Source: a virus
DNA: 41,210 nucleotides
Strand: one strand, 5' to 3'
IMG/VR virus record: IMGVR_UViG_3300036760_000083
Span: 1-41,210 of that record
A program made the translations under genes and the position numbers. Positions 3,323 through 23,222 of this stretch are shown here, in pieces. How positions within the stretch are numbered: the stretch's first letter is position 1; each line of letters begins with the position of its first letter. The notes beneath the pieces are model-generated. The model searched no databases and was not told the origin of the DNA. It was given only the letters and a program-made list of their open reading frames with translations.

Positions 3323-3507
3323 TGGATATTCCTCTTGTCACAATTCAAACGCTTTGGGGGAAAGGTTAAGACTTACGGACTGGGTCTGGGGCTAGATGCT
3401 TGTTGTTGCAAATAACGGCCCATATTCAATTCTGGTAATTGTGGATAGATTTATCCTGTCGATCAATTGCTTCGCTGTGCGGGCTATCGCACATGCTCGT
3501 GATTGCC

Positions 3508-3525
3508 TGTGTACGACTGTACACA
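3508..3525. promoter_or_regulatory. palindrome, operator-like
   Basis: TGTGTAC (3508-3514) and GTACACA (3519-3525) are perfect inverted arms around GACT. The site lies about 60 bp downstream of the -10 box of the leftward promoter at 3585-3613. Its form is that of a dimeric repressor or activator site, but no candidate regulator is encoded nearby. Confidence 0.4.
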
Positions 3526-3544
3526 CTCAATCACTTCCTATCGC

Positions 3545-3560
3545 GTATTTCACCCCACAA
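3545..3560. repeat. 16-bp inverted repeat, left copy
   Basis: GTATTTCACCCCACAA is the exact reverse complement of 4571-4586, about 1 kb away on the other side of the small terminase gene. Its TTGTGGGGTG core occurs a third time at 2830-2839 beside the terL start. Confidence 0.7.
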
Positions 3561-3584
3561 CAACACTTGTTTTGCTTGGTTTCT

Positions 3585-3613
3585 AGTTTATCATATTTTG
3601 AGAGAAAAGTCAA
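3585..3613 (-). promoter_or_regulatory. sigma70-type promoter, leftward
   Basis: On the minus strand TTGACT at 3613-3608, a 17-nt spacer, and TAAACT at 3590-3585. It would drive the 61-residue gene at 3137-3322 and read on into the terminase genes. The transcript start would fall near 3578, just before the 16-bp repeat copy. Confidence 0.5.
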
Positions 3614-4032
3614 GTAAAAAATGAAAGTGCCAGATATTTCTGTATGTTTTTAGGTATCCCGGAGGCCCGAATTTCCTTAATTAAATCAGTAGAATAGAAC
3701 ACACGGAGGGGTGGGGGTATGGGTCGGTATTCTAAAAAATTATTATTTTCCTCTAAATCATGCAAAACTGAAATGTTCCTGGAAACTATAATAATTCCAG
3801 TACTATATGCGAAAGTGCGGGTATCGTCCCTCATATCCTCTGTATCCATCTACTTGTATCTCTTAAGGAATCCCTTATTTTCATTCGCACCCACTCGCAC
3901 TCGCACGTATTTTCGAGCCGGGGGTAGGGGGGGGTACCCTTGACATTACACTTGCAATTGCAATCACTGTGTACAGCTAACGATTGCACCCACCTACTGC
4001 AATCGAGTGCAACTACTATACCAGTGCAATTG

Positions 4033-4419
4033 TTAGGCTTTCGGAAGGGTGTACTTATTATGCTGGATAGCAGTCTTGGGTCCGCTAGTTGCACTTGCAA
4101 TAACCTTGCCTATCTCTCCGAGAAACTTCAGTGCTTGCAATTGCAATTTCTCGTCATTGGAGTCTAGCCACTTGCGAGATAGTGCGAGTGCAATGTCTGT
4201 TACTTCTTGCCAATGCGTCTTTACCCCACCCAGTATACTGTCAATCGCGCCAGATGCGTTAGCCCGGGTGAGTAATTCTGAACCCGCTACCTTTGCACTC
4301 TCGTGGGTTAAATGTGGCTTAAGCGATTGAATTGCTTGCGTTGCGTTCATGCCATTATCGAGATAAGCAGTCGCAAAGAGTCTTTCTTCAAGTGCTTTTG
4401 TCTCGGGTTTCTTGGCCAT
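4033..4419 (-). CDS. terS: terminase small subunit candidate
   Basis: The 128-residue product has the N-terminal helix-turn-helix pattern of terminase small subunits: MNATQAIQSLKPHLTHESAK followed by VAGSELLTRA (about residues 23-52), then a helical oligomerisation region (about 70-105). Such proteins recognise the packaging site and hand DNA to the large subunit. Gene order (leftward, before the large terminase and portal) supports this. The start ATG 4419 has no clear Shine-Dalgarno sequence. The leader from the predicted promoter at 4733-4762 is about 300 nt long and full of TTGCAA sites. The short C-terminal tail (KYTLPKA) is unremarkable. Assignment rests on the helix-turn-helix pattern and position. 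Confidence 0.7.
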   Translation of the reverse strand: MAKKPETKALEERLFATAYLDNGMNATQAIQSLKPHLTHESAKVAGSELLTRANASGAIDSILGGVKTHWQEVTDIALALSRKWLDSNDEKLQLQALKFLGEIGKVIASATSGPKTAIQHNKYTLPKA

Positions 4420-4732: not shown

Positions 4733-4762
4733 ACCATAACATATTTGACATACCTTTGTCAA
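4733..4762 (-). promoter_or_regulatory. leftward promoter for terS and the late unit
   Basis: On the minus strand TTGACA at 4762-4757, an 18-nt spacer, and TATGGT at 4738-4733 with an upstream TG. The same -35 is half of an inverted repeat with TTGACA on the plus strand at 4745-4750, so a regulator could bind here. A run of seven G follows the -10 on this strand. Confidence 0.45.
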
Positions 4763-5532: not shown

Positions 5533-5826
5533 GGACAAACCCACAAGGTGCGCGGAGTAGCAACAAGCATAAGGACGGAAGCCGGAAAGACCAAGGTTCG
5601 GTATCATAATACTGACGTCGTTACGTTCGATGATAAAGAGATTGTGTTAGATACAGGTAATTGGTACACGGTTACAACGAAGGTAAGAATGAACCAAGCG
5701 AGCAATCAATACGGCTTAGGTTATTCAGTCTTTAAGAAAGACGGTTTTTGGCACGTTGTGACACAAAGAGATGGGAAGGTTCATACCTTTGGCGATGACG
5801 ACAAACTTACATTAAAGAGAGGTTAA
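5530..5826 (+). CDS. conserved small phage protein of unknown function
   Basis: 98 residues from ATG 5530, chosen over an in-frame upstream ATG at 5509 because of the AAAGGGGG ribosome site. The core VRYHNTDVVTFDDKEIVLDT followed by GNWYTVTTKVRMNQASNQYG and LGYSVFKKDGFWHV is a pattern I recognise from a small phage protein family with the same order of motifs. It is predicted to be a small beta-rich protein. Its role is unknown. It sits 2 nt before the next gene's ATG, so it is probably cotranslated with it. Confidence 0.75.
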   Translation: MGQTHKVRGVATSIRTEAGKTKVRYHNTDVVTFDDKEIVLDTGNWYTVTTKVRMNQASNQYGLGYSVFKKDGFWHVVTQRDGKVHTFGDDDKLTLKRG

Positions 5827-5827
5827 T

Positions 5828-6214
5828 ATGAGCTACAGAGACACCCAAGAGAAGAAATGGAATAAGGCAATCGCACTAAAATACTTCGATACTCTTCCCG
5901 AAAGGATTAGACGACTAATCAATACAGCTACATTTGATCTTTATTATGGTCCCATAGACGAGAATCCGGACGGCGACGATTTTAGATACCCCGGCTTTTC
6001 ATTAGCAGTAGACGAGATTGTGAAACATCTTGATTTACCCTCTGTATTGTATTGGGAGGGAGACTGTGAGGAATTGTTAGAATCGTGTCCCGAAGGCTAT
6101 ACCGAAGAGGAAACAGGAGAATACGTAGAGCCATATTTAGAGAATACGTTTGAATTAGACGCCAAGACTATTAAACAAGCAGTCTTAGGGAAGGAATTAG
6201 CAAACACAATATGA
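5828..6214 (+). CDS. hypothetical acidic early protein
   Basis: 128 residues, strongly acidic in the second half (YTEEETGEYVEPYLENTFEL). No recognised family. AAAGAGAGGT precedes ATG 5828 as ribosome site, and its TGA overlaps the ATG of the next gene. Confidence 0.75.
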   Translation: MSYRDTQEKKWNKAIALKYFDTLPERIRRLINTATFDLYYGPIDENPDGDDFRYPGFSLAVDEIVKHLDLPSVLYWEGDCEELLESCPEGYTEEETGEYVEPYLENTFELDAKTIKQAVLGKELANTI

Positions 6215-6378
6215 AGATTAATCAAAGATTCATTGCACGCACTGATTATATTACTCTTGACGATGATTACGAGATTAACATTTATCCGCAATTAAAGGTT
6301 GACGAGGAAGCCGTATATCAGTACGATCAAAATGGGGTGGACGTTATTGGGTGGATAATAAAGGAGAAATATAAATGA
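6211..6378 (+). CDS. small hypothetical protein (55 aa)
   Basis: ATG 6211 overlaps the previous stop (ATGA), and its TGA 6376-6378 overlaps ATG 6375 of the next gene. The product starts MKINQRFIARTDYITLDDDY and ends GWIIKEKYK. This tight double overlap and acidic composition like its neighbours argue that it is real. No function is recognised. Confidence 0.7.
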   Translation: MKINQRFIARTDYITLDDDYEINIYPQLKVDEEAVYQYDQNGVDVIGWIIKEKYK

Positions 6379-7013
6379 AATACAAAACTACTAAAGACGA
6401 GAAAACAGGCTTATATAGGATTGAAGCCTTGATTGATATTCCTAAATGGGGAATTGTGAAAGGCGATAAGGGCGGTTTGTTAGAAAAAGAAAACAGTCTT
6501 TCACAAAATGGCAATGCTTGGGTGTCCGACGATGCTCAGGTGTCCGGCAATGCTCGGGTGTACGGCAATGCTTGGGTGTACGGCAATGCTCAGGTGTACG
6601 GCAATGCTTGGGTGTCCGGCGATGCTCGGGTGTCCGGCGATGCTTGGGTGTCCGGCGATGCTCAGGTGTACGGCAATGCTCAGGTGTCCGGCGATGCTCG
6701 GGTGTACGGCAATGCTCAGGTGTACGGCAATGCTCAGGTGTACGGCGATGCTCGGGTGTACGGCAATGCTTGGGTGTCCGGCGATGCTCGGGTGTCCGGC
6801 GATGCTTGGAAAAAATCTCCTTTATATATTTGTGGAACTAAATTCGCACTAACCAACTGTAAGAAAGGCTATATTCAGATAGGCTGTTTATGTTACACCT
6901 TTGCGAAATGGTTAAAGAATTATAAGAGGATAGGCAAAGACAACGGTTTTACCGATGCGGAAACAGAAGAATATTACGAGTACATTAAACTATTTAAAAA
7001 AATAGGTAAGTAA
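6375..7013 (+). CDS. hexapeptide-repeat (left-handed beta-helix type) protein
   Basis: 212 residues in three parts. Residues 1-45 are a short domain (KYKTTKDEKTGLYRIEALID). Residues about 46-145 are some 16 hexapeptide units of the form G-(N/D)-A-(R/Q/W)-V-(Y/S). Residues about 146-212 are a mixed domain with two cysteines in IQIGCLCYTF and a helical end. Hexapeptide repeats of this spacing form left-handed beta-helix prisms in acyltransferases and in phage proteins of unknown role. No acyltransferase catalytic histidine is evident, so a structural or binding role is likelier. GGAGAAAT precedes ATG. A promoter for the next genes follows at 7022. Confidence 0.75.
   Translation: MKYKTTKDEKTGLYRIEALIDIPKWGIVKGDKGGLLEKENSLSQNGNAWVSDDAQVSGNARVYGNAWVYGNAQVYGNAWVSGDARVSGDAWVSGDAQVYGNAQVSGDARVYGNAQVYGNAQVYGDARVYGNAWVSGDARVSGDAWKKSPLYICGTKFALTNCKKGYIQIGCLCYTFAKWLKNYKRIGKDNGFTDAETEEYYEYIKLFKKIGK
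6510..6809 (+). repeat. tandem 18-bp repeat within the hexapeptide gene
   Basis: Units of 18 bases vary only at a few fixed positions (GGC(A/G)ATGCT(C/T)(A/G)GGTGT(C/A)C), about 16 units in a row. Units alternate between a few near-identical versions, as expected for slippage or unequal exchange. The array is open in all three forward frames. Confidence 0.9.
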
Positions 7014-7021
7014 AATAAAAC

Positions 7022-7050
7022 TTGACAAAGTAAGCAAAATGTGTCAAGAT
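7022..7050 (+). promoter_or_regulatory. internal rightward promoter
   Basis: TTGACA at 7022-7027, a 17-nt spacer, and CAAGAT at 7045-7050. TTGACA and TGTCAA (7042-7047) also form an inverted repeat. An ATG lies 6 nt beyond the -10 box but opens only a 9-codon frame (MKAVIPWTL). The first real gene starts at 7074. Confidence 0.45.
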
Positions 7051-7073
7051 ACTTACATGAAGGCGGTAATACC

Positions 7074-7274
7074 ATGGACGTTGTAGACATGTTTCTAAGA
7101 GATTTCTTTAAGGAATACGAGAGGTTAAGCACGGATCCTCGTAAAGACTTGAAGGACAATTATGAGATTAGCTTTAAATATGCTTTGTCCGTCTTGCCGC
7201 GAAAATTGACTGTAGACGAGACGGATACGGTCATTAGTGCACTAGATGGATTGAGGAATGGGTTGTATACATGA
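7074..7274 (+). CDS. hypothetical protein (66 aa)
   Basis: From ATG 7074: MDVVDMFLRDFFKEYERLST, then an acidic helical protein ending LRNGLYT. GTG 7041 in the same frame is an alternative, but it lies inside the predicted promoter. GAAGGCGG precedes 7074. It overlaps the resolvase gene start by 4 nt, so it is probably cotranslated. No recognised family. Confidence 0.65.
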   Translation: MDVVDMFLRDFFKEYERLSTDPRKDLKDNYEISFKYALSVLPRKLTVDETDTVISALDGLRNGLYT

Positions 7275-7645
7275 TAGAATTGTATCTCAAAGGACAATGT
7301 CCGAGCGGAAAGAACGCAGTAGTTGTGACACGTACCGGACATCGTTTCCCGGCAAAGAGATTTAAGGAATGGCGAGAAGATGCTTTATTGCAGCTAAAAC
7401 CGCAATTAACAAAGTGGAAAGATTGCTTGCCTTTTAATAGGCCTATTAGTATACAAGTATATTATACAACGAAAGATTTACGAAGACGAGATGTTCCCGG
7501 CATACTAGACGCAATATGGCATTTATTGGAAAAAGCTAATATAGTAACGGACGATACTTTCTTAGGGGGACACGGTGAACAAGTATTATTTCATAATCGA
7601 GGCAAAGTCATCAAACCGGAAATAATTATAAAATTAATGGGGTGA
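7271..7645 (+). CDS. rusA: RusA-like Holliday junction resolvase
   Basis: RusA-family enzymes are small dimeric nucleases that resolve branched DNA, in phages usually before packaging. The 124-residue product has the family layout: a short N-terminal strand with GQCPSGKN, a central region with RRRDVPGILDAIWHLLEKA (about residues 75-93), in which the aspartates match the family's D-x(n)-D active-site helix, then IVTDDTFLGG with the following acidic pair, and a C-terminal basic strand. Length is as expected (about 120). It starts by an ATGA overlap with the previous gene, within the replication and recombination set. Confidence 0.85.
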   Translation: MIELYLKGQCPSGKNAVVVTRTGHRFPAKRFKEWREDALLQLKPQLTKWKDCLPFNRPISIQVYYTTKDLRRRDVPGILDAIWHLLEKANIVTDDTFLGGHGEQVLFHNRGKVIKPEIIIKLMG

Positions 7646-10491: not shown

Positions 10492-11286
10492 TTGCTTGAT
10501 GAATACCACATTTCAAAAGATTGGGAAAAATATGAGGAGTTTCGACTAAAGAAAAAGACCGGGTTGACTACAGGTTTTCCGTCGATTGATAAAGAGATAA
10601 GAGCATTACCCGGTTTTATTACTTTGGTTGGCGATACTGGTTTAGGCAAGAGTTATTTCACAATGAACGTGTTCTTGCACTTGGCCCGTACTGGAATTCC
10701 CGTCATTCTCCTAGATCTTGAAAACGGAAGGAATCGCACTCGAACGCGAATACTTTCTTATTTGGCACGGATAACACCAGATGCGATCCAATCGGGGAAA
10801 TTTATAAATGGCGAAAAAGAAAAATACGAGGAAGCGGTTGCCGAGTTGTCCGGCTTGCCGATATATTACTTCAATGAAATGCGACCAGACCAACTCGAAA
10901 CCCACATTAAAGATATTGGAACGCACCACAAAAAACGGGTATTTGTGGTTATCGACTCAATCAATAGACTTATCGAAGATTTTGAAGACAGGCGAAAAGA
11001 TATTGATATGTGGTCTACACTCTTCAATAACCTAAAGGTGAAATATGAAAATTTTGTCAATATTTGGGCAATTTGTGAAGAGAATGAAAAAGAAGGGATC
11101 AAGGAGTCAGGAACAACCAAACATATTACCGAATTATGGCTTAGAATGGCTAAAACTAAAGACAAGACAGGGATATTCATTGAGTGTAAAAAACACCGAG
11201 ATGGGCCAGTGGGTATTATGGCAGTTTTAAAGGCGGGTTATCCGTTTTGTTTTAATATGGAAGAGGTTGAAAGCGTGCCAGAATGA
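10492..11286 (+). CDS. RecA/DnaB-superfamily ATPase (replicative helicase candidate)
   Basis: 264 residues from TTG 10492, with GAGGA 5-6 nt upstream and the previous stop directly adjacent. Walker A is GDTGLGKS (47-54), LLDLEN holds the catalytic glutamate (E77), and Walker B is FVVIDSINR (D155). The size and single RecA fold fit DnaB C-domain or KaiC-like phage helicases without a primase or N-terminal domain. Its 3' end overlaps the DNA polymerase start by 4 nt. It probably unwinds the fork for the polymerase, though a recombinase role cannot be excluded. Confidence 0.75.
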   Translation: MLDEYHISKDWEKYEEFRLKKKTGLTTGFPSIDKEIRALPGFITLVGDTGLGKSYFTMNVFLHLARTGIPVILLDLENGRNRTRTRILSYLARITPDAIQSGKFINGEKEKYEEAVAELSGLPIYYFNEMRPDQLETHIKDIGTHHKKRVFVVIDSINRLIEDFEDRRKDIDMWSTLFNNLKVKYENFVNIWAICEENEKEGIKESGTTKHITELWLRMAKTKDKTGIFIECKKHRDGPVGIMAVLKAGYPFCFNMEEVESVPE

Positions 11287-13199
11287 ATAGAACTTGTTAT
11301 TACATTAAAAAACTAACTCCTCATAATGTTGAGAGTATTTTGAACTCTAAGCATTTGGTGATTGACTTAGAAACGACCGGATTAAATCCCCGCAAAGATC
11401 GTATCGTGGGCATGTCCTTTGCTATAGAACCCAATTCAGGTTGTTACACTACAGACATCAAAGGACTAATGAGTGTAGTGTATAACTACAAAGGTCAATT
11501 AGTGTTCCATAATGCCGTGTTCGATTTATCAATGCTAAAAGCCGCTGGTTATGCTTTGAGACAGACGGCTCACGATACGATGCTATTAGCGCATTTGCTA
11601 AATCCCGACCGACCCCACCTTGGACTGAAAGACCTTGCCGTTGAATTGCTGGGAGAAGGTTCGAACCGCGCCGCTCTTAAAATGTATCAATGGTTACAAG
11701 ACAACAGCCTAACCAAAGAAGACATTTCAAAAGCTCCTATTGAAGTGCTTGCCCCCTATGCAGCGGAAGACGCGATTAACACATATGAGATATTTGTAGC
11801 TCTTGCACAGAAGGCTGGGAAGTTGAACGAATACTTTAAAAAACAAAACATTAAATTTAACATTTGGAACCAGTATTTGCGCGAAGTAGTTGACCTCATT
11901 CCAGTAGTTGTTGATATGCAGCTAAATGGGGTGAAGTTGGACCTAGAAGCTACAGCATTAAAACAGAAAGAATTAGAGCTTAGAAGTGCACAACTCTGTC
12001 AAGAATTGACAGTTATTAACCAAAAAGAAATCGCACAAGTAGAGGAAATACTTCATGTGCGGAAAATAGAAGATCGCAAAAAGAAGAATAAATCCGGTAA
12101 GATAAAGGTCTTGCCCGCACGGTCTCAGTTTAATTGGGACTCCAATAATAATCTGAAACAGCTTTTCTTGGGCGTCCATAAACTACAGATAACCAAGAAG
12201 ACGGCCAAGGGTAACGCTTCGGTTGATAGTTCCTTCTTAGAGACGATAAAAGATAAGTTTGAATGGATACCCAAACTCCTTGAATATAAAGAATTGAAGA
12301 AACTTACAAGTACCTATTTAGGCAGTCTGTTAGAGCGACAAGAAGGGGGCTTTATCCATGCGAGTTTTAACGTATCCGGCACGACTACTGGACGCTTTTC
12401 GTCTAGCAATCCGAATCTTCAGAATCTTCCTAAACATGGAGGAATCAAAAGCCTTTTTATACCAAGAAAAGGGCACTCCTTTATCTATGCTGATTATTCA
12501 CAATTGGAACTCAGAATTGCAGCTCACCTCTCAAAAGACAAACGCCTTATTGAAGCATATAGACTTGGTACGGATCTTCACCAACAAACAACAGATTTTA
12601 TTGGGATCTCCGAAAGAGATAAAGGAAAGAGGATCAACTTTGCGATTATTTATAACGCTAGTGGATGGAGAGTGGCAGAGATATTGGGCCTAATGGACGG
12701 TATCCCAGTCTGCCCCAAGACCGAAAGAGATTGGAAATGCGACTGCGTGGGTTGTGTGAAGCGAAAGAAAGCAGCCAAGAAAGGTGATGAAATCATTGAG
12801 GTTTTGTTCGGAAAGTACCAAGGAATAAAGAATTATGTTGACAAGCAACGAGAGTTTATGATAAGGTACGGAGTAGTGATAAGTGAATTTAGCCGGATAC
12901 GGCGATTAGAAGGACTTAAATCACAAGTAAAGAGAGAATACACCCATGCGCTTAAAGCCGGATTTAATTTTCCTATACAGTCTTTTGGGGCTAGTTTGTG
13001 CAAGCGTAGTATGGTTGCATTATACAAGGCAGGTTATCGTTTGGTAAACCAAGTCCACGACAGTGTTATGATAGAAATACCCAATGATAGGCGAGAAAGT
13101 GCGATTGTGGAGATTAAAGACATAATGGAAAATATTTATAAGATTTCGGTACCTTTGATTGTAGAACCTAAAATTTTAACTAGTTTTGAAGAGAAATAA
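11283..13199 (+). CDS. polA: DNA polymerase, family A, with 3'-5' exonuclease
   Basis: 638 residues; the phage replicase. Exonuclease: LVIDLETTGL (D28, E30), FHNAVFDL (N77, D81), YAAED (Y159, D163). Polymerase: TGRFSSSNPNLQNLP (369-383), motif A FIYADYSQLELR (D404), motif B with R445, K449, F453 and Y457, and motif C QVHDSV (H592, D593). There is no 5'-3' exonuclease domain, as in phage enzymes of this size. Unusual is a cysteine-rich insert after motif B (C477, C486, C488, C491, in KCDCVGC), which could bind zinc, and a basic spacer at about 265-280. F453 corresponds to the F762 position of E. coli Pol I. Confidence 0.95.
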   Translation: MNRTCYYIKKLTPHNVESILNSKHLVIDLETTGLNPRKDRIVGMSFAIEPNSGCYTTDIKGLMSVVYNYKGQLVFHNAVFDLSMLKAAGYALRQTAHDTMLLAHLLNPDRPHLGLKDLAVELLGEGSNRAALKMYQWLQDNSLTKEDISKAPIEVLAPYAAEDAINTYEIFVALAQKAGKLNEYFKKQNIKFNIWNQYLREVVDLIPVVVDMQLNGVKLDLEATALKQKELELRSAQLCQELTVINQKEIAQVEEILHVRKIEDRKKKNKSGKIKVLPARSQFNWDSNNNLKQLFLGVHKLQITKKTAKGNASVDSSFLETIKDKFEWIPKLLEYKELKKLTSTYLGSLLERQEGGFIHASFNVSGTTTGRFSSSNPNLQNLPKHGGIKSLFIPRKGHSFIYADYSQLELRIAAHLSKDKRLIEAYRLGTDLHQQTTDFIGISERDKGKRINFAIIYNASGWRVAEILGLMDGIPVCPKTERDWKCDCVGCVKRKKAAKKGDEIIEVLFGKYQGIKNYVDKQREFMIRYGVVISEFSRIRRLEGLKSQVKREYTHALKAGFNFPIQSFGASLCKRSMVALYKAGYRLVNQVHDSVMIEIPNDRRESAIVEIKDIMENIYKISVPLIVEPKILTSFEEK

Positions 13200-13214
13200 C
13201 AAAAGAGGAGCAGC

Positions 13215-13898
13215 ATGAAATTATCATTAATTGTTCTAATTATTAGTTTGATAGGTAGTTTGGGTTGTGTCCGCATATCTCGGAATACTTTATGCACATT
13301 AGAACGAGTAGACAGCGTACAGCAACACGGAGTAAAAATTACATGCAAAGATGCTCACAACAAAACCAACACATCCTTTATTTCAGACGGAGCGGACGGT
13401 AATCCTGGAATTGCCGGTAATGATGGCGAGCGCGGGACAGACGGACAAGATGGAATACAAGGAGAATCTGGCAGTGCTGGAATAAACGGCACAAATGGTC
13501 TAGATGGCATTAGCAGTGCAGATGGACAAGACGGAATAGATGGTACAGATGGAGTAAACGGCACTAGCGGCATTAATGGGGCTGATGGACAATCTTGTAG
13601 TATGGCAGAATCTGAAGAGGGAATTACAATTACTTGTCCTGATGGGTCCGAAGTCTTTTTAGCCAACGGAACGGATGGAACAGACGGTACTGATGGCACA
13701 AATGGTCTAGATGGCGCGGTTGGTGCAGATGGGGAAAGAGGCTCAGACGGACAAGATGGAATAGACGGAGCAATCGGGGAGAATGGAGGTTCTTGCTCAG
13801 TTACTTGTATCAATCATTCGACAAGAACAGTTATTGAATGCGAAGACGGTTCTTCTGTTACCATTAAGGGGCACTGTTCGGAAGACGAGGAAAATTAA
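13215..13898 (+). CDS. collagen-like lipoprotein
   Basis: 227 residues. An N-terminal hydrophobic segment ends in GSLGC (C19), a plausible though imperfect lipobox, so the protein may be lipid-anchored in the cell envelope. From about residue 60 it is a Gly-X-Y collagen-like repeat rich in D, N and T, interrupted by two cysteine modules of the same plan: SCSMAESEEGITITCPDGS and a second near the end starting SCSVTCIN. AGAGGAG precedes ATG. A lipoprotein in the early region could act at the host surface, for example in superinfection exclusion. That is inference. Confidence 0.7.
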   Translation: MKLSLIVLIISLIGSLGCVRISRNTLCTLERVDSVQQHGVKITCKDAHNKTNTSFISDGADGNPGIAGNDGERGTDGQDGIQGESGSAGINGTNGLDGISSADGQDGIDGTDGVNGTSGINGADGQSCSMAESEEGITITCPDGSEVFLANGTDGTDGTDGTNGLDGAVGADGERGSDGQDGIDGAIGENGGSCSVTCINHSTRTVIECEDGSSVTIKGHCSEDEEN

Positions 13899-14366
13899 AT
13901 GACCAAAGACGAGTTTGATAAAGAAGAGAAACGATTAGCTGCGGTGGATATTACACCACTTTCTGATATGAAAGCAGCTCTTGGTGGAAAGAAACCAGTA
14001 TTAGCTCATGTCAGTGTTGCCCTTTTGAATTACGTCGCCAGAGCCCACCAATACGGAGCGCAAAAATATGAAATGGGTAATTATCTTAGAAAGCCTTCAG
14101 CTGGTACTGATGTTGATCGTTTACTTGAGTATATATCGGCTGCGCAAAGGCACCTTGCTCAATGGGCCGACTCAATCATTCGATTCGAAGGTAAGGGACT
14201 GGGGGCGAAAGTTCGAAAGGATGAAGCTTATTTCGGTGCAGACGACGAAAGCAAGCTCCCCCACGCCGCCCACGCAGGAGCGTCTTTATCCATGGCCTTA
14301 CAGCAAGCAGCAGACGCAGGACTAATTCCCCTCGACCCGGGGATTACTTGGAAGGTTACTAGATGA
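13899..14366 (+). CDS. dATP/dGTP diphosphohydrolase-like protein
   Basis: 155 residues. KKPVLAHVSVALLNYVARAH followed by QYGAQKYEMGNYLRKP and later LLEYISAAQRHLAQW and LPHAAHAGASLSMAL matches the phage nucleotide diphosphohydrolase N-terminal family, which has the plan GA.KY...N...RHL....H..HA. Members hydrolyse deoxypurine triphosphates, which changes the dNTP pool during infection. It starts directly after the previous stop and overlaps the exonuclease gene by 4 nt. I identify the family from motif layout only, and the catalytic residues are not certain. Confidence 0.65.
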   Translation: MTKDEFDKEEKRLAAVDITPLSDMKAALGGKKPVLAHVSVALLNYVARAHQYGAQKYEMGNYLRKPSAGTDVDRLLEYISAAQRHLAQWADSIIRFEGKGLGAKVRKDEAYFGADDESKLPHAAHAGASLSMALQQAADAGLIPLDPGITWKVTR

Positions 14367-15142
14367 TCAAAAAGCCACACATATTGTATTTCGACATAGA
14401 AACAACGCCAAATCTAGTCTTCGTTTGGCGGTTGGGTAAACAATACGTCTCTTATGATAGTATTCATAAAGAGCGAAAGATTTCTTGTATCTGCTACAAG
14501 TGGGGTGGTGAAAAGACTATACATACTTTAAAGATGAACATGAGTCTACATGATCTTACGAAACACGACGACCAAGCCGACAAAAAAATGCTCGAAGAAT
14601 TTTGCAAGGTCTATAAAGAAGCCGATCTTGCGGTAGGACACAACGGAATAAAATTTGACATAGGATCTATACGCAGTCGGCTAGTTGCCTATAACTTGCC
14701 CGATATTGCACCGGTTATCCTCGACGACACTTATATCTCTACCAAGGCCATTGGATTTAATAGTCACAAACTCGACTACTTATCGAAATATCTTGGTTTA
14801 GGACAGAAAGCACCCCACCCCTATCAACTGTGGGTAAATGTTATGCAGGGTAATGAGAAAGCTTTAGATGAAACAGTCGAATACTGCGTCCAGGACGTAC
14901 GATTGCTGGAAAAGATATATAATGCAGTGCTTCCGTATATAAACACGAAACTTAACCGGGCGGCATTTAACGAAGACGCAAGATTGTGCCCTTCTTGTGG
15001 CAAAAACACGCTTATATCAAACGGCACCAAAGTTACAGTTACGTGGGGTCAAAAGACGCAATTTAAATGTACTTCTTGTGGTAAATATAGTACAAGCGGA
15101 GCGACAAAGATTGCAACTGATAGCAAAATACTGCCGAGGTAA
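14363..15142 (+). CDS. DEDDy 3'-5' exonuclease with C-terminal zinc ribbon
   Basis: 259 residues. An RNase H-like exonuclease: ILYFDIETTPN (D and E of motif I, about residues 10-12), VGHNGIKFDIGSIRSR (motif II, about 91-106) and YCVQDV (Y and D of motif III, about 174-178). After residue about 205 there is a C4 zinc ribbon, CPSCGKNTL and CTSCGKYS. Such phage proteins may degrade host DNA or RNA or help recombination. It is separate from the polymerase's own exonuclease domain. It overlaps the previous gene (ATGA). Confidence 0.8.
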   Translation: MIKKPHILYFDIETTPNLVFVWRLGKQYVSYDSIHKERKISCICYKWGGEKTIHTLKMNMSLHDLTKHDDQADKKMLEEFCKVYKEADLAVGHNGIKFDIGSIRSRLVAYNLPDIAPVILDDTYISTKAIGFNSHKLDYLSKYLGLGQKAPHPYQLWVNVMQGNEKALDETVEYCVQDVRLLEKIYNAVLPYINTKLNRAAFNEDARLCPSCGKNTLISNGTKVTVTWGQKTQFKCTSCGKYSTSGATKIATDSKILPR

Positions 15143-18119: not shown

Positions 18120-18393
18120 TTGTGGCCATAAGCAATATTGTCCCTGTCCTAACTGTGTAGATACCTGTCCCAAAGATATGAAACCTTGGGTATGGCTTAA
18201 AGGGGATATTATCAATTGTGGAAATTGCGGCTTTAGTCAATACGCAGACTGGTGGGAAGAAGTGACTGTGGCAATATACAAATGGACACAACAGGCTATT
18301 AAAACACCCATGGTTCAGAATTCTGCACTTAAACAGTATAATATTCTATCAGAAAGTGCTAAAATAAACCTTGACAACCTGGACGATTTGTGA
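18106..18393 (+). CDS. zinc-ribbon protein (95 aa)
   Basis: Six cysteines lie in the N-terminal part (CPNCGH..CPCPNCVDTC), then CGNCGFSQYADWW (two more) and a helical, hydrophilic C-terminus. It is probably two zinc-binding knuckles that contact nucleic acid or protein. It overlaps the RNA ligase end by 14 nt. GAAAGGTT upstream is the ribosome site. No known family. Confidence 0.65.
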   Translation: MHCPNCGHKQYCPCPNCVDTCPKDMKPWVWLKGDIINCGNCGFSQYADWWEEVTVAIYKWTQQAIKTPMVQNSALKQYNILSESAKINLDNLDDL

Positions 18394-18399
18394 TAAGCT
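18371..18399 (+). promoter_or_regulatory. internal promoter
   Basis: TTGACA at 18371-18376, a 17-nt spacer, and TAAGCT at 18394-18399. ATG 18407 lies 7 nt beyond the -10 box. It resembles the promoters at 8850 and 23257. Confidence 0.45.
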
Positions 18400-18406
18400 A
18401 TCTTCA

Positions 18407-18634
18407 ATGATAAATGACCATTTACTTTATTTTGCTGAGATTGTAGGAGCTTGTACGGTTGTAGAAGTCTTGTTTAGGTACATAGACTCTCGCACCAACA
18501 GGCAAATCAATGAAATGCTCTGTGACGGCTGCAACAAACCGCGCAAGCTCCTACACTCTAAAGATAAGAAGTTGTGGTTATGTCGAAGCTGTGCTAGGGT
18601 TTACAAAGCGAATAAATTGGAGACATATAAATGA
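18407..18634 (+). CDS. small protein with membrane segment and zinc ribbon
   Basis: 75 residues from ATG 18407, a start suggested by the promoter; a TTG at 18371 in frame is the alternative, but it is the -35 box. The N-terminal half (LLYFAEIVGACTVVEVLF) is hydrophobic and may be one membrane helix. The C-terminal half holds CDGCNKPRKLL and WLCRSCARVY, a C4 zinc ribbon. No recognised family. The next gene starts within its stop (ATGA). Confidence 0.6.
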   Translation: MINDHLLYFAEIVGACTVVEVLFRYIDSRTNRQINEMLCDGCNKPRKLLHSKDKKLWLCRSCARVYKANKLETYK

Positions 18635-19665: not shown

Positions 19666-19825
19666 TTTCTACAAGCTCTTAGATAAAGATGCGGAGATTT
19701 TGGAATGGATGATGAATCAGGAGCACGTATTTAAATTAAAGAAGAGACACAAATTGCCCGATGGCAGTACTTTTTTAGTAGAATTTGAAGCAATTACAGA
19801 TTTACCCTTGGAGGCGGCGAAATGA
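19601..19825 (+). CDS. hypothetical protein (74 aa)
   Basis: Start chosen at ATG 19601 (GGGGAAAACGAAC upstream) rather than GTG 19586 in the same frame. MRIKIHAQVGVFHKPKQNPD, then a helix DFYKLLDKDAEILEWMMN and a strand-rich end. The first 65 nt overlap the previous gene. It overlaps the next by 4 nt. No known family. Confidence 0.6.
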   Translation: MRIKIHAQVGVFHKPKQNPDIDFYKLLDKDAEILEWMMNQEHVFKLKKRHKLPDGSTFLVEFEAITDLPLEAAK

Positions 19826-20004
19826 AACTTTCAATTAATCCCGGGATAGGCGGTTTTCCGGCACTTTTGTTTACTATCTTAAAGTTGACGGGAATAATTC
19901 ACTGGTCTTGGGTTTGGGTTTTAAGTCCTGTTTGGATACCTTTCAGTCTTATGTGTGTTCTAGTTATTTTTGTTTTAATCATTCAATCATTTGAAAGACA
20001 CTAA
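19822..20004 (+). CDS. small membrane protein (transmembrane Fragile-X-F-type)
   Basis: 60 residues with two hydrophobic segments, GFPALLFTILKLTGII and WVWVLSPVWIPFSLMCVLVI, joined by HWSW. LFTILKLTGIIHWSWVWVLS followed by PVWIP is the hallmark of a small phage membrane protein annotated as transmembrane Fragile-X-F protein, whose function is unknown. It is the last gene of the rightward unit and is followed by the terminator. Its place at the end, convergent with the lysis region, would allow a role in the envelope. Confidence 0.8.
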   Translation: MKLSINPGIGGFPALLFTILKLTGIIHWSWVWVLSPVWIPFSLMCVLVIFVLIIQSFERH

Positions 20005-20090: not shown

Positions 20091-20399
20091 TTACGCGCCA
20101 GATGCATCAAGATTCGCATTGCCAAAAGCGAAATAGATATACACTTTCGCACTTTCATTAGCTTCCGCATCCGAACCAAGAGAAAAACCCGTGGGCGTGA
20201 GAGTGCAGCCGTTAGTCTCTGCGCCAACTTCCGAATCCACGGATGCTACGGTCGCAGCGGTCATTCCATTAATGTGGAACCAAAAGCCGTCTCCGTCAGT
20301 CTGATTAAAACCCAAGACAAACTCGGGCTTAAATCCCAACGTAATTGCCTGAGTAGCGCCAGAACCCGTATAAGTGCCGGTTTTATATGAAGGGACCAT
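20091..20399 (-). CDS. small virion or surface-type protein, paralog of the upstream domain
   Basis: 102 residues. GFKPEFVLGFNQTDGDGFWF followed by NGCTLTPTGFSLGSDAEANE and a YIYFAFG strand match the fold plan of the neighbouring 209-residue protein: GFxPxxVxxxN, a polar loop, TPTGFxxGxD, YxxxA. This plan is common in phage virion proteins. It is the last gene of the late unit. AAAGGAG lies upstream of ATG. Confidence 0.65.
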   Translation of the reverse strand: MVPSYKTGTYTGSGATQAITLGFKPEFVLGFNQTDGDGFWFHINGMTAATVASVDSEVGAETNGCTLTPTGFSLGSDAEANESAKVYIYFAFGNANLDASGA

Positions 20400-20431: not shown

Positions 20432-21061
20432 TTAGAACTTCCAAGCAGACCAATACAGCACCTCGGACCCGCCGGGGTTAATATCGGAATCCGTACCAAC
20501 CGTGAATCCGTTCTTCGTGGGAGTAATACCCAACGTTGTAATGAAGGCAGAATCAGCAGCACCGCCAGTAAACGAACCTGCCGGAGTGACTCCCTTAACG
20601 ATCTTATAAGCTCCCGCATCAGTATTCGCGGAACCTTGAACAGTAAGAACCGCAGGAGCAGCAGAAACCGCTGTATTGCTCAAAATGAGATTGGGCGGGG
20701 TCGCGCCTGTAGCGGAAATCAACCACATACCAGCACATTGATTAAGAGTCATAGTCTGATTATCCGTAGTCGTAATCACTTGACCAACAGCCGACAAACC
20801 CGTACCTGAAAAAGCTGGGGTCGCTAAATTCAAGTCGCTCGTAGGAGCAGTTCCGGTAAACGTACCAGAAGCCACCCCATTAACCTTGTATCCCGCTGCG
20901 TCGGGCATACGTTTATTCCATGCTAGCGTAGCTTCCCCGGTACGATTGTGTAAAAGAACGACAGCCGGTCTGAATCCGCAATCAATACTAATTGCAGAGC
21001 CGGTCGTAGCAACTTCACCACAAGCAACCTGGGGGCCTACACTTTTATCTCCGTCAGCCAT
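20432..21061 (-). CDS. virion or surface-type protein (209 aa)
   Basis: It contains GFRPAVVLLHNRTGEATLAW near the N-terminus and ITPTKNGFTVGTDSDINPGG with VLYWSAWKF at the end, a beta-sandwich style plan seen in phage structural proteins. It is placed between the rhomboid and the smaller paralog at 20091. AAGGGAGG precedes ATG. Probably a decoration or tail-surface protein; the precise role is unknown. Confidence 0.6.
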   Translation of the reverse strand: MADGDKSVGPQVACGEVATTGSAISIDCGFRPAVVLLHNRTGEATLAWNKRMPDAAGYKVNGVASGTFTGTAPTSDLNLATPAFSGTGLSAVGQVITTTDNQTMTLNQCAGMWLISATGATPPNLILSNTAVSAAPAVLTVQGSANTDAGAYKIVKGVTPAGSFTGGAADSAFITTLGITPTKNGFTVGTDSDINPGGSEVLYWSAWKF

Positions 21062-21093
21062 AATTGGCCTCCCTTAAAATGCGGACTAATCCC

Positions 21094-21112
21094 GTACTAG
21101 ACAATCTAGTAT
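21094..21112 (-). other. short intergenic hairpin
   Basis: TACTAG (21095-21100) and CTAGTA (21106-21111) form a 6-bp stem around ACAAT between the rhomboid stop and the next gene. There is no U-tract on the minus strand, so it is not a typical terminator. Confidence 0.3.
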
Positions 21113-21113
21113 G

Positions 21114-21704
21114 CTATTGGTTCCGCTTAAATAAACAAAATAAAATTAATCCGGTAACTGCACCGGCGACATGTCCTAAATGGGCAACGTCAGAGCTATT
21201 AATCAAATCTGATACGCTTGCACCAAATTGGTTGTATAACATTACTAAAAACACAAGTCCAGTCAGCAACTTCCCGACCAAAGAGCGTTGTACAAAGGGG
21301 AACACGGCCATTAAACCGCTATTGGCAACAGACGCCCCAATAATGACGCTTTTGGGATAGAACAATGCCCAACCGATACCTCCTCCAATTCCGCAAAGTA
21401 TCCAAAATGATATATAACGGAAACGGCCAAAATACGCTTCTACAGCGGGACCCAACAAAAGCAAATACAACAGATTGCCGATTAAATGATCAAAATTAAC
21501 ATGGGAGAAGTTATATCCAAATACTGCAAAAGGTTGAGAAAACAAATCATGAATATTAAAACCCCAACCGTGTCCACTGAAATGCACATAAAGGCAGGCC
21601 GTGGCGAACAAGTAGGTGCAATAGGGTATGCTATTTGACTGTACAGCCGGTTCTTTCGAGTAACCGAAGATGTTGCCACAGATTGACGTGATTTTCGATA
21701 GCAT
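21114..21704 (-). CDS. rhomboid-family intramembrane serine protease
   Basis: 196 residues with about six hydrophobic segments. FSHVNFDHLIGNLLY (66-80) is the conserved HxxxxHxxxN helix, and GPAVEAYFGR (85-94) follows. The nucleophile motif GASV (S125) is followed by SGLMAVF, and the catalytic histidine H175 lies in AHLGHVAGAVTG. Rhomboids cleave membrane proteins within or near their transmembrane helices. The usual GxSG motif has V instead of the second glycine. GGAAGGG precedes ATG 21704, which lies inside the o-spanin gene (74-nt overlap). Close linkage to spanins suggests a role at lysis or at the host envelope. The substrate is unknown. Confidence 0.85.
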   Translation of the reverse strand: MLSKITSICGNIFGYSKEPAVQSNSIPYCTYLFATACLYVHFSGHGWGFNIHDLFSQPFAVFGYNFSHVNFDHLIGNLLYLLLLGPAVEAYFGRFRYISFWILCGIGGGIGWALFYPKSVIIGASVANSGLMAVFPFVQRSLVGKLLTGLVFLVMLYNQFGASVSDLINSSDVAHLGHVAGAVTGLILFCLFKRNQ

Positions 21705-21873
21705 TAGACAAATCCCTTCCCTTAACGGAATTGTTAATAACTTGCACCGGCCTCATAATGGGGTGTGGGGGACATTTACTACGGACTAACGTATTAGTAT
21801 GTACGCAACCACAAATAGTGATACTCAATAACAAACAAATTTCAATTATCATTTTCATTTTTATTTGATACAT
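21631..21873 (-). CDS. o-spanin, outer-membrane lipoprotein (Rz1-like)
   Basis: 80 residues from ATG 21873 (AAGG upstream); ATG 21858 and 21852 are alternatives. A short basic N-terminus is followed by IIEICLLLSITICGC, a signal peptide with a lipobox-like ICGC. The processed protein would be a lipoprotein in the outer membrane, with a proline region and a helical end. Its start overlaps the i-spanin end, the usual Rz/Rz1 arrangement. With the i-spanin it would join inner and outer membranes and disrupt the latter at lysis. Confidence 0.65.
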   Translation of the reverse strand: MYQIKMKMIIEICLLLSITICGCVHTNTLVRSKCPPHPIMRPVQVINNSVKGRDLSNAIENHVNLWQHLRLLERTGCTVK

Positions 21874-22160
21874 TGGACCTTGTATGGGTCATTTGATAAA
21901 ATGCACGAATCCCTTGCATCGTCTTGTGGGTTTGACTCTCGATTAAGTCTAATACTATCTCTAACCCTATTGGTGCTTTCTCGCTCTCGTTCCACGGATT
22001 CAGTTCTTTGTTGAAGCTCTTTAACAACTGCTGCATTAATTTTTGATGCACAATCCCTCCTACCTTTGATATAAACCCAAGATAAGACAAAAAGCACAAA
22101 GCCTGAAATTGCAAAGATTTTCCAATATTTTGTAAAAAAGAGAAGAAAAACAGAAACCAT
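21861..22160 (-). CDS. i-spanin, inner-membrane subunit (Rz-like)
   Basis: 99 residues. One N-terminal transmembrane segment (VFLLFFTKYWKIFAISGFVL and on to WVYI), then a long hydrophilic helical stretch (INAAVVKELQQRTESVERER) fit for a periplasmic coiled coil. Three cysteines lie in the periplasmic part. It overlaps the o-spanin start and lies between the holin candidate and the rhomboid. Assignment rests on topology and overlap with a lipoprotein gene. Confidence 0.65.
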   Translation of the reverse strand: MVSVFLLFFTKYWKIFAISGFVLFVLSWVYIKGRRDCASKINAAVVKELQQRTESVERERESTNRVRDSIRLNRESNPQDDARDSCILSNDPYKVQCIK

Positions 22161-22163
22161 TTA

Positions 22164-22427
22164 TTACCTCGGAAGTCTCGCTTCAATTGTCGCCAGCCTT
22201 GTCATTAATACTTCTTTGTCTTGTCGGCAAGAAGCTATTTCCGCTTCGAGTTTCTCAATTCTAACAGTTAAAGCTGACGCCCAAACTAAAGTTTTATCCA
22301 GAAGAATTTGAGCCGCATCTGCTTCTGTTTTCTTTTTACTAAATTTACCTTGTATAACTGCTACCAGAACTTGACTTCCTGTAATAGCGGTTATCATTGT
22401 TCCTATACTCGCCCAATCAACAGTCAC
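22164..22427 (-). CDS. holin candidate with C-terminal coiled coil
   Basis: 87 residues from GTG 22427 (AAGGAG upstream). The first 25 residues, WASIGTMITAITGSQVLVAV, form one moderately hydrophobic helix. The rest is basic then coiled coil (VRIEKLEAEIASCRQDKEVL). Location among endolysin and spanins suggests a holin or a holin regulator. A single weak membrane helix makes this tentative. Confidence 0.5.
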   Translation of the reverse strand: MTVDWASIGTMITAITGSQVLVAVIQGKFSKKKTEADAAQILLDKTLVWASALTVRIEKLEAEIASCRQDKEVLMTRLATIEARLPR

Positions 22428-22436
22428 AAATACTCC

Positions 22437-22844
22437 TTATGGTAAAATTTCTGTTACTAAAGCATTACCATTGGCAGACTCCCAAATTCCAGTAATGTCT
22501 CCCGTATAGGCAGGATAAGGAACTTCAAAATATGCTTTGGCGGTCATTAAAACGGAATAATTAGAAGCAGACGCACCCGTTCCTAATTTGATTCTCATAT
22601 TCTTTGTTGAATCGTTGAAAATCAAAAGTCCTTTACGATTCGCATTAGCAGCCTGCAAAGTAACGACCGTCGCGGAAGAAGCAACCGCCGTAACAGTAGA
22701 AGTAGAAGGATTAGGAATGCTCGGAGGATATACTTTTAGCTGGCCTTGGGGGGTAACTTCTACTGTATTAGTACCGTCTGAGATTGTAATAGTGTCGTCT
22801 GGTGCGGCAATATTAATATCTGTAATATTAGATGTTAGAGGCAT
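22437..22844 (-). CDS. small virion protein of a conserved phage family
   Basis: 135 residues. An N-terminal stretch with TVEVTPQGQLKVYPPSIP is followed by NANRKGLLIFNDSTKNMRIK with LGTGASASNYSVLM, then EVPYPAYTGDITGIWESANG with TEI at the end. The layout (N..RKGL.I.N.S...L.IKLG..AS...Y.......E.P..YTG.I.GIW.S..G.A.VTE) is widespread in phage structural modules. Probably a decoration or tail component. It ends 10 nt before the holin candidate's GTG. Confidence 0.7.
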   Translation of the reverse strand: MPLTSNITDINIAAPDDTITISDGTNTVEVTPQGQLKVYPPSIPNPSTSTVTAVASSATVVTLQAANANRKGLLIFNDSTKNMRIKLGTGASASNYSVLMTAKAYFEVPYPAYTGDITGIWESANGNALVTEILP

Positions 22845-22850
22845 AAGAGT

Positions 22851-23222
22851 TTATTTTCCTTTCGTTTCGGGCAATTCAACATGTCCCATATCTCTTTGTT
22901 TCCAATCTCCACCCCACCGAAGACCTAGTTTCTTGGCTTCTGTTCCAATAACAAACCAATCTGGATGATGAGGAGCCCAATTTTTAAGATTAATAACCGA
23001 TAAGGGTACAATATCCATTGCGTTTGCTTTCCCATTGTTATCGGGCAAATGACGACTGTGTAATGTCCAGGATACGCCGTTTTTAATGTTGATTTTCTGT
23101 TCTTCGAGCGTTCTCAGAGTATCAAGAACCATAACTTTAAGACCCAAATGCTTAAGAATATCAAGCAATTGAGTTGCTTTTGGTTTGAATTCTGATGATA
23201 AATCTTCAATAGAACAGCTCAT
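22851..23222 (-). CDS. endolysin, M15-type L-Ala-D-Glu (or D-Ala) peptidase
   Basis: 123 residues. It cuts the peptide part of peptidoglycan during lysis. Zinc ligands fit SRH (H58), D70 in KANAMDIVP, and H114 in GHVEL; WGGDW (103-107) and R37 in LRT are typical of the family. Length fits single-domain phage peptidases. There is no signal peptide, so release would need a holin. The ATG 23222 lies 6 nt beyond the -10 box of the promoter at 23229-23257, so the transcript may be leaderless. Confidence 0.85.
   Translation of the reverse strand: MSCSIEDLSSEFKPKATQLLDILKHLGLKVMVLDTLRTLEEQKINIKNGVSWTLHSRHLPDNNGKANAMDIVPLSVINLKNWAPHHPDWFVIGTEAKKLGLRWGGDWKQRDMGHVELPETKGK

Follow-up and report, generated by a model that had tools for sequence, protein, structure and literature searches.

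The stretch of DNA analysed here, called the window throughout, comes from a virus record and measures 41,210 bases. Its minus strand carries a lysis cassette that reads, in order of transcription, as an M15 endolysin, a 135-aa protein, a holin-like protein, an i-spanin candidate, an o-spanin candidate and a predicted rhomboid protease. The features of this region are listed below; G002 and G006 are related records that share parts of it.

22851..23222, minus strand: endolysin, M15 peptidase family (PF13539, E 1.8e-7; phrog_465, E 5.6e-21)
22437..22844, minus strand: 135-aa protein between the endolysin and holin-like genes, without clear family in Pfam and PHROG searches
22164..22427, minus strand: holin-like protein with a single transmembrane segment, 87 aa, GTG start (hydropathy, flank charge, homologues in G002 and, by eye, in G006)
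21861..22160, minus strand: i-spanin candidate, 99 aa, N-terminal transmembrane segment followed by a charged region (phrog_312, Rz-like spanin, E 1.2e-3)
21631..21858, minus strand: o-spanin candidate, 75-aa lipoprotein (lipobox-like ICGC site, by eye)
21631..21704, minus strand: overlap of the o-spanin 3' end and the rhomboid 5' end, 74 nt, +1 frame (sequence, comparison with G002)
21114..21704, minus strand: rhomboid intramembrane serine protease, predicted (Pfam, PHROG, AF2 model, GlpG alignment)
20432..21061, minus strand: 209-aa protein downstream of the rhomboid, resembling by eye a 248-aa protein of G006 (3447-4193)
20091..20399, minus strand: 102-aa tail/structural domain protein (phrog_24898, tail fiber, E 5.1e-6)

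The i-spanin candidate has a weak but repeated match to phrog_312, found again with its G002 homologue (E 1.1e-3), and a transmembrane segment predicted by hydropathy. The o-spanin candidate follows it directly and has an alternative in-frame ATG at 21873; the only profile match in its favour is a weak one, of the G002 homologue to phrog_456 (Rz-like spanin, E 0.073). No holin-named profile matches the holin-like protein of either the window or G002. The PHROGs that match are all small and have either an unknown function or the label membrane protein, which leaves a weak holin assignment. Counterparts of the 102-aa tail/structural protein are seen by eye in both G002 and G006.

Elsewhere in the window, one end has terminase reading frames and the opposite end a C-terminal portal-like piece, which suggests a circular or circularly permuted genome that was cut at an arbitrary point. 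The large terminase is apparently divided between two adjacent minus-strand genes (936-1673 and 1794-2819), each of which aligns to its own part of the phrog_2 profile. Neighbouring reading frames of similar lengths are seen by eye in related loci (L085, 793-1818 and 1815-2537; L112 of G004, 6256-7290 and 5553-6254), so the split looks shared. On the plus strand, 11283-15142 holds genes for a DNA polymerase of 638 aa and, separately, for a polymerase-exonuclease (phrog_403). Between them, 13215-13898 encodes a collagen-like protein whose signal resembles that of a lipoprotein. A 60-aa protein with two predicted transmembrane segments (19822-20004, plus strand) is the last of the left operon and faces the late genes.

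The rhomboid and its active site

The rhomboid reading frame starts with an ATG at 21704 and encodes 196 aa. On the plus strand over the same positions frame 1 is riddled with stops, and the longest reading frame crossing the gene has 98 aa (21064-21360). The product matches the Pfam family PF01694 (Rhomboid) with 70.5 bits (E 2.3e-19), well past the curated cut-off of 22.6, and phrog_16931 (E 1.8e-8), a family without named function that also takes in the rhomboids of G002, G006 and the megaphage LR745206. The sequence-only reading, which had called the gene a phage-encoded rhomboid and had asked for a structure prediction, is borne out by this match and by the predicted fold. An AlphaFold2 model built from 68 aligned sequences (mean pLDDT 82.5, pTM 0.80) has a GlpG-like multi-helix core. 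E. coli GlpG is a rhomboid protease of MEROPS family S54. Its structure 4qnz is the top Foldseek match (E 3.7e-5), and VIA-align superposes the model on GlpG 6pj4 with Z 19.7, 2.5 Å over 164 residues and 18% identity; iRhom folds are among the matches too. At the level of sequence, phmmer with the single window protein finds no PDB entry and a profile search retrieves GlpG. The GlpG equivalog models TIGR04239 and NF008155 give no match at E <= 1. Membership of the rhombosortases (TIGR03902) was rejected on score, 41.4 bits against an equivalog cut-off of 84, and a GlyGly-CTERM-like tail was seen by eye in none of the 12 window reading frames flagged by hydropathy.

Catalytic residues were placed by column counts in an alignment of 82 proteins, comprising 80 loci of a genome collection, the Enterococcus contig OR846642 and LR745206. 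The counts assign them to H68, H73, N77, S125 and H178: a serine in the GxS motif, a histidine on the last predicted transmembrane helix and a His/Asn pair on the second. The helix motif described earlier as HxxxxHxxxN (H68-xxxx-H73-xxx-N77) and the serine in G123-A124-S125, with V126 in place of the second Gly of GxSG, are thereby confirmed. The catalytic histidine had been put at H175, which is wrong: among the 68 non-gap rows column 178 holds His in 67 and Gln in one, and the profile alignment sets the histidine of the GlpG motif AHIAG against H178. Column 175 (His in 56 of 68) represents a second, often conserved histidine one turn before.

Three positions near these residues depart from the family. 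Val at 126 occurs in none of 78 relatives, which have Gly (55), Ala (19) or Thr (4) there; since they vary themselves, Gly after the catalytic Ser is not strictly defining. In columns 63-71 or 87-95 the scan patterns behind the alignment were partly fixed, which biases counts there to uniformity; the first of these ranges includes position 65, where the window has N65 and all 82 relatives have Met. S129 stands in a column of Phe (30), Tyr (28), Met (16), Leu (2) and two others (n=78). It corresponds to GlpG Y205, which forms a wall of the S2' cavity in inhibitor structures (PMC3690538). The G002 rhomboid also has S129 but keeps a regular GASG; those of G006, LR745206 and phage DLP5 have Phe. 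Lying beside the predicted active site, S129 may alter activity. H68, H73, N77, G123, A124, S125 and H178 are identical in all five phage rhomboids (window, G002, G006, LR745206, DLP5), even though the other four share only 18-36% identity with the window protein, and this argues for retained catalysis. We conclude that 21114..21704 is a real gene encoding a rhomboid of GlpG type in which all catalytic positions are filled.

Gene order and overlap in related and unrelated phages

The rhomboid ATG lies within the o-spanin candidate frame, which stops at 21631, as had been noticed before, and the overlap measures 74 nt; GGGAAGGG is found upstream of the ATG. In G002 an ATG at L089:4708 is nt 155 of a 228-nt o-spanin gene and again gives a 74-nt overlap. 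Position 155 is the only +1-frame start common to the o-spanin genes of the two phages, and in G002 it is preceded by GGAGAGG. G002 has other in-frame rhomboid starts as well; the alignments behind its rhomboid identities and residues use the later one at 4741. A family match at E 1e-19 combined with an overlap of the same length and place in a relative is more than chance would give.

The relatives were reached through the capsid. Scans of viral contigs with the single window rhomboid, with a 664-aa protein of the connector region and with an alignment of the window rhomboid and two others yielded no close relatives. The window capsid protein led to loci L085 and L086, the latter belonging to G002 (35,897 nt), where a rhomboid of 79.1 bits lies shortly behind the i-spanin homologue. 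The G002 cassette runs endolysin (phrog_7), holin-like protein, i-spanin, o-spanin, rhomboid. Identity to the window is 66% for the capsid, 37% for the rhomboid, 40% for the o-spanin, 37% for the i-spanin and 33% for the holin-like protein. The endolysins belong to different families, M15 in the window and phrog_7 in G002, and the rest is kept; the block from holin-like protein to rhomboid thus seems to have been retained through a replacement of the endolysin. The strain G013 (L090), which is almost identical to G002 (50 differences in 11,196 nt), has the same cassette, including the rhomboid start within the o-spanin gene. The two rhomboids show 0 differences, and a selection signal is unreadable from sequences so similar. 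Scans with the rhomboid pair, the i-spanin pair and an i-spanin pattern returned G002 again, plus G013. The window-type i-spanin is thus found in three records and the rhomboid adjoins it in all three, which stand for two lineages only and were found by scans built from these very sequences. A second capsid scan gave 12 loci; in the 14 records searched (these 12, L090 and MW202801) a rhomboid is present in three (G002, G006, G013) and the i-spanin in two (G002, G013). Most of the 14 are fragments, so that absence there says little.

The conserved order and identical overlap support the view that the rhomboid is built into the lysis cassette of these phages. An earlier suggestion linking it to lysis fits the arrangement seen in G002 and G013, but arrangement as such proves no lysis role, and the conserved order may stem from common descent of the late region and not from a common function. 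Rhomboids beside spanins, which the sequence-only reading had proposed to look for in other phages, do occur in G002 and G013, whereas the rhomboid of G006 (24,843 nt; 84.3 bits) lies away from the lysis genes. There it overlaps the end of a gene for a 91-aa hydrophobic protein by 13 nt and precedes an SU10-type adaptor, with a GH108 endolysin and a holin-like gene about 10 kb distant. Inspected by eye, the G006 lysis junction has no recognisable spanins or rhomboid, only small genes followed by structural-looking ones. In MW202801 there is an endolysin, together with genes that look spanin-like by eye, and no rhomboid was found in it. From G006 and MW202801 together it follows that spanin lysis does not in general include a rhomboid.

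Two further observations concern G006. Its 91-aa hydrophobic protein (L111, 11496-11771) matches nothing in PHROG or Pfam and is a possible partner or substrate of the rhomboid; a search run without a positive control found homologues in 0 of 7 other records. At L114 4531-5170 two small genes with no obvious transmembrane segment or lipobox (by eye) occupy the place held in the window and G002 by i-spanin, o-spanin and rhomboid.

With the DLP5 rhomboid, tblastn matched 4 of 50,697 phage records, namely DLP5 twice, Summit and DLP3; the window rhomboid matched two, one of them by eye a bacterial contig, and the G002 rhomboid none. Among 72,556 plasmid records the window protein matched two, both of Streptantibioticus. 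A set of 12 records with rhomboid matches includes bacterial-looking ones (Acinetobacter and Salmonella, by name or annotation) and unannotated faecal contigs. OR846642 (L002) carries the title of an Enterococcus phage contig but was not accepted as a phage relative, because its neighbouring genes are, by eye, bacterial housekeeping genes; it reads as bacterial chromosome. The rhomboid of LR745206 (634,780 nt; L003, 7881-8441) is 50.5% identical to one in LR756502, and none of its nine neighbours matches a PHROG at E <= 0.01. More viral proteins with the names rhomboid, rhombosortase or GlpG-like are present in BFVD.

A tree of 82 rows makes sisters of the window and G002 (99/95), which have a long stem in common (2.85). 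G006 joins them weakly (89/33, with a long-branch warning), and LR745206 and DLP5 are placed elsewhere. The five phage rows need three label changes; the tree lends a single phage origin no support and does not contradict it. All 14 control genomes contain rhomboids.

Proposed role and known systems

Rhomboids show a preference for single-pass substrates whose N-terminus is out and whose C-terminus is in (PMC7232013). The holin-like protein is predicted from flank charge to have this orientation. Among 67 reading frames of the window that were picked by hand and scanned for hydropathy, it is the only minus-strand, late single-pass protein with a negative N-terminal and a positive C-terminal flank; the plus-strand frame 18371-18634 has the same charge pattern. 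Its G002 counterpart shares the pattern (-1/+3) and the G006 protein, a homologue by eye, lacks it (+1/+1). I-spanins as a class are oriented N-in/C-out, and on this topology the i-spanin was set aside as preferred substrate; its own flank charges in the window (+2/+2) are not decisive. The holin-like protein is thus the better-fitting candidate in the window and G002. Taken with the N-out preference, the charge pattern leads to a modest hypothesis: the rhomboid processes the holin-like protein and so tunes lysis.

We propose, with a probability of roughly 0.3, that the rhomboid is expressed late, coupled to the o-spanin, and cleaves the holin-like protein of its own cassette, thereby setting membrane opening. 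It would be read from one late message with the holin-like protein, i-spanin and o-spanin, and its translation would be coupled to that of the o-spanin, so that the protease would reach the inner membrane as the lysis proteins accumulate. There it would cleave a single-pass membrane protein, most likely the product of 22164-22427, which appears to offer a short outside N-terminus, a transmembrane segment containing glycine and serine, and a basic C-terminal side within. Cutting might activate the holin-like protein, as AarA does with Providencia TatA, where the rhomboid removes an N-terminal extension (PMC3712462). It might instead clear away copies that are early or unassembled, in the way that GlpG deals with orphan membrane proteins; PMC7232013 describes such removal by rhomboids. 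Either outcome would set the timing of membrane opening. Slightly less likely is the general form of the proposal, that in some phages an intramembrane protease in a spanin cassette acts as a dedicated timer and that proteolysis of a cassette membrane protein, beyond holin build-up, sets the burst.

The holin-like protein is the best guess at a substrate, and a host target is about as likely. A late protease acting on a host envelope protein could shed a receptor or adhesin, or a membrane factor needed by a rival phage, and so aid exit or block superinfection; its place by the spanins would then be merely a late-expressed spot. The G006 rhomboid, in another position of the late region, indicates that nearby spanins are unnecessary, and DLP5, DLP3 and Summit carry rhomboids too, in DLP5 within a 25-kb stretch without annotated lysis gene and close to a PIG-L deacetylase, WcaG and WecE. 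What a host target leaves unexplained, beyond inheritance, is the 74-nt overlap conserved in two diverged lineages. Less probable is a passenger (moron) gene of bacterial origin that gives a slight late benefit through general membrane-protein quality control, with no specific substrate. Sources abound, to judge from the control genomes; the five phage rows need three label changes in the tree, which would also allow a single origin, and clearance of orphan membrane proteins is a known rhomboid activity. Nevertheless, the window and G002 have kept the gene, every catalytic residue and the overlap while the two proteins diverged to 37% identity, and their long shared stem points to an old phage line.

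It is improbable that the protein is a pseudoprotease, a rhomboid fold of lost or reduced catalysis that binds membrane proteins and, for example, holds the holin-like protein or the i-spanin. The departures at V126, N65 and S129, the last at the cavity-wall position of Y205, and the iRhom folds matching the model would suit such a role. S125, H178, H73 and N77 are, however, kept in all five phage rhomboids, and G002 has its regular GASG despite S129.

Phage lysis is usually described by holins, endolysins and spanins only. Phage rhomboids are already known: those of DLP5 and DLP3 are published (PMC5834331, PMC7326821), and the Stenotrophomonas phage rhomboid is called a moron by its authors (PMC5834331). 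Among the matches listed for the open-access literature none ties a rhomboid to lysis or places one in a lysis cassette. The spanin survey PMC6139136 does not use the word rhomboid in its main text, PMC9527704 has it once, in a reference only, and two phage-genome papers use it for a plot symbol. The overlap with the o-spanin, kept in a distantly related phage, suggests a protease that acts together with the genes responsible for ending infection, and a conserved protease gene starting within an o-spanin gene points to proteolysis as a step of lysis or as one closely timed with it. If true, this would be a new kind of control over lysis timing. It would also be the first defined role for phage rhomboids, as the records and papers examined otherwise call them morons or name no function for them.

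Compared with Rz/Rz1-type two-component spanin cassettes, the window has the common order of endolysin, holin-like gene, i-spanin candidate and o-spanin candidate, and adds after the o-spanin a rhomboid gene that overlaps it. With E. coli GlpG the rhomboid shares fold and catalytic positions. It differs in its 18% identity, in lacking the N-terminal cytosolic domain that GlpG has, in V126 and S129 beside the catalytic Ser, and in being phage-borne with a start inside an o-spanin gene. The rhomboids of the Stenotrophomonas phages DLP5, DLP3 and Summit are likewise phage-encoded, that of DLP5 with identical catalytic residues; it is, however, only 18% identical to the window protein. Its neighbours are metabolic genes and genes that modify the envelope, and the 50-75 kb stretch contains no annotated lysis gene. 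The model for our proposal is, by analogy, Providencia AarA and TatA, a rhomboid that activates a small membrane protein; in the window, enzyme and proposed substrate would both be phage genes of one cassette.
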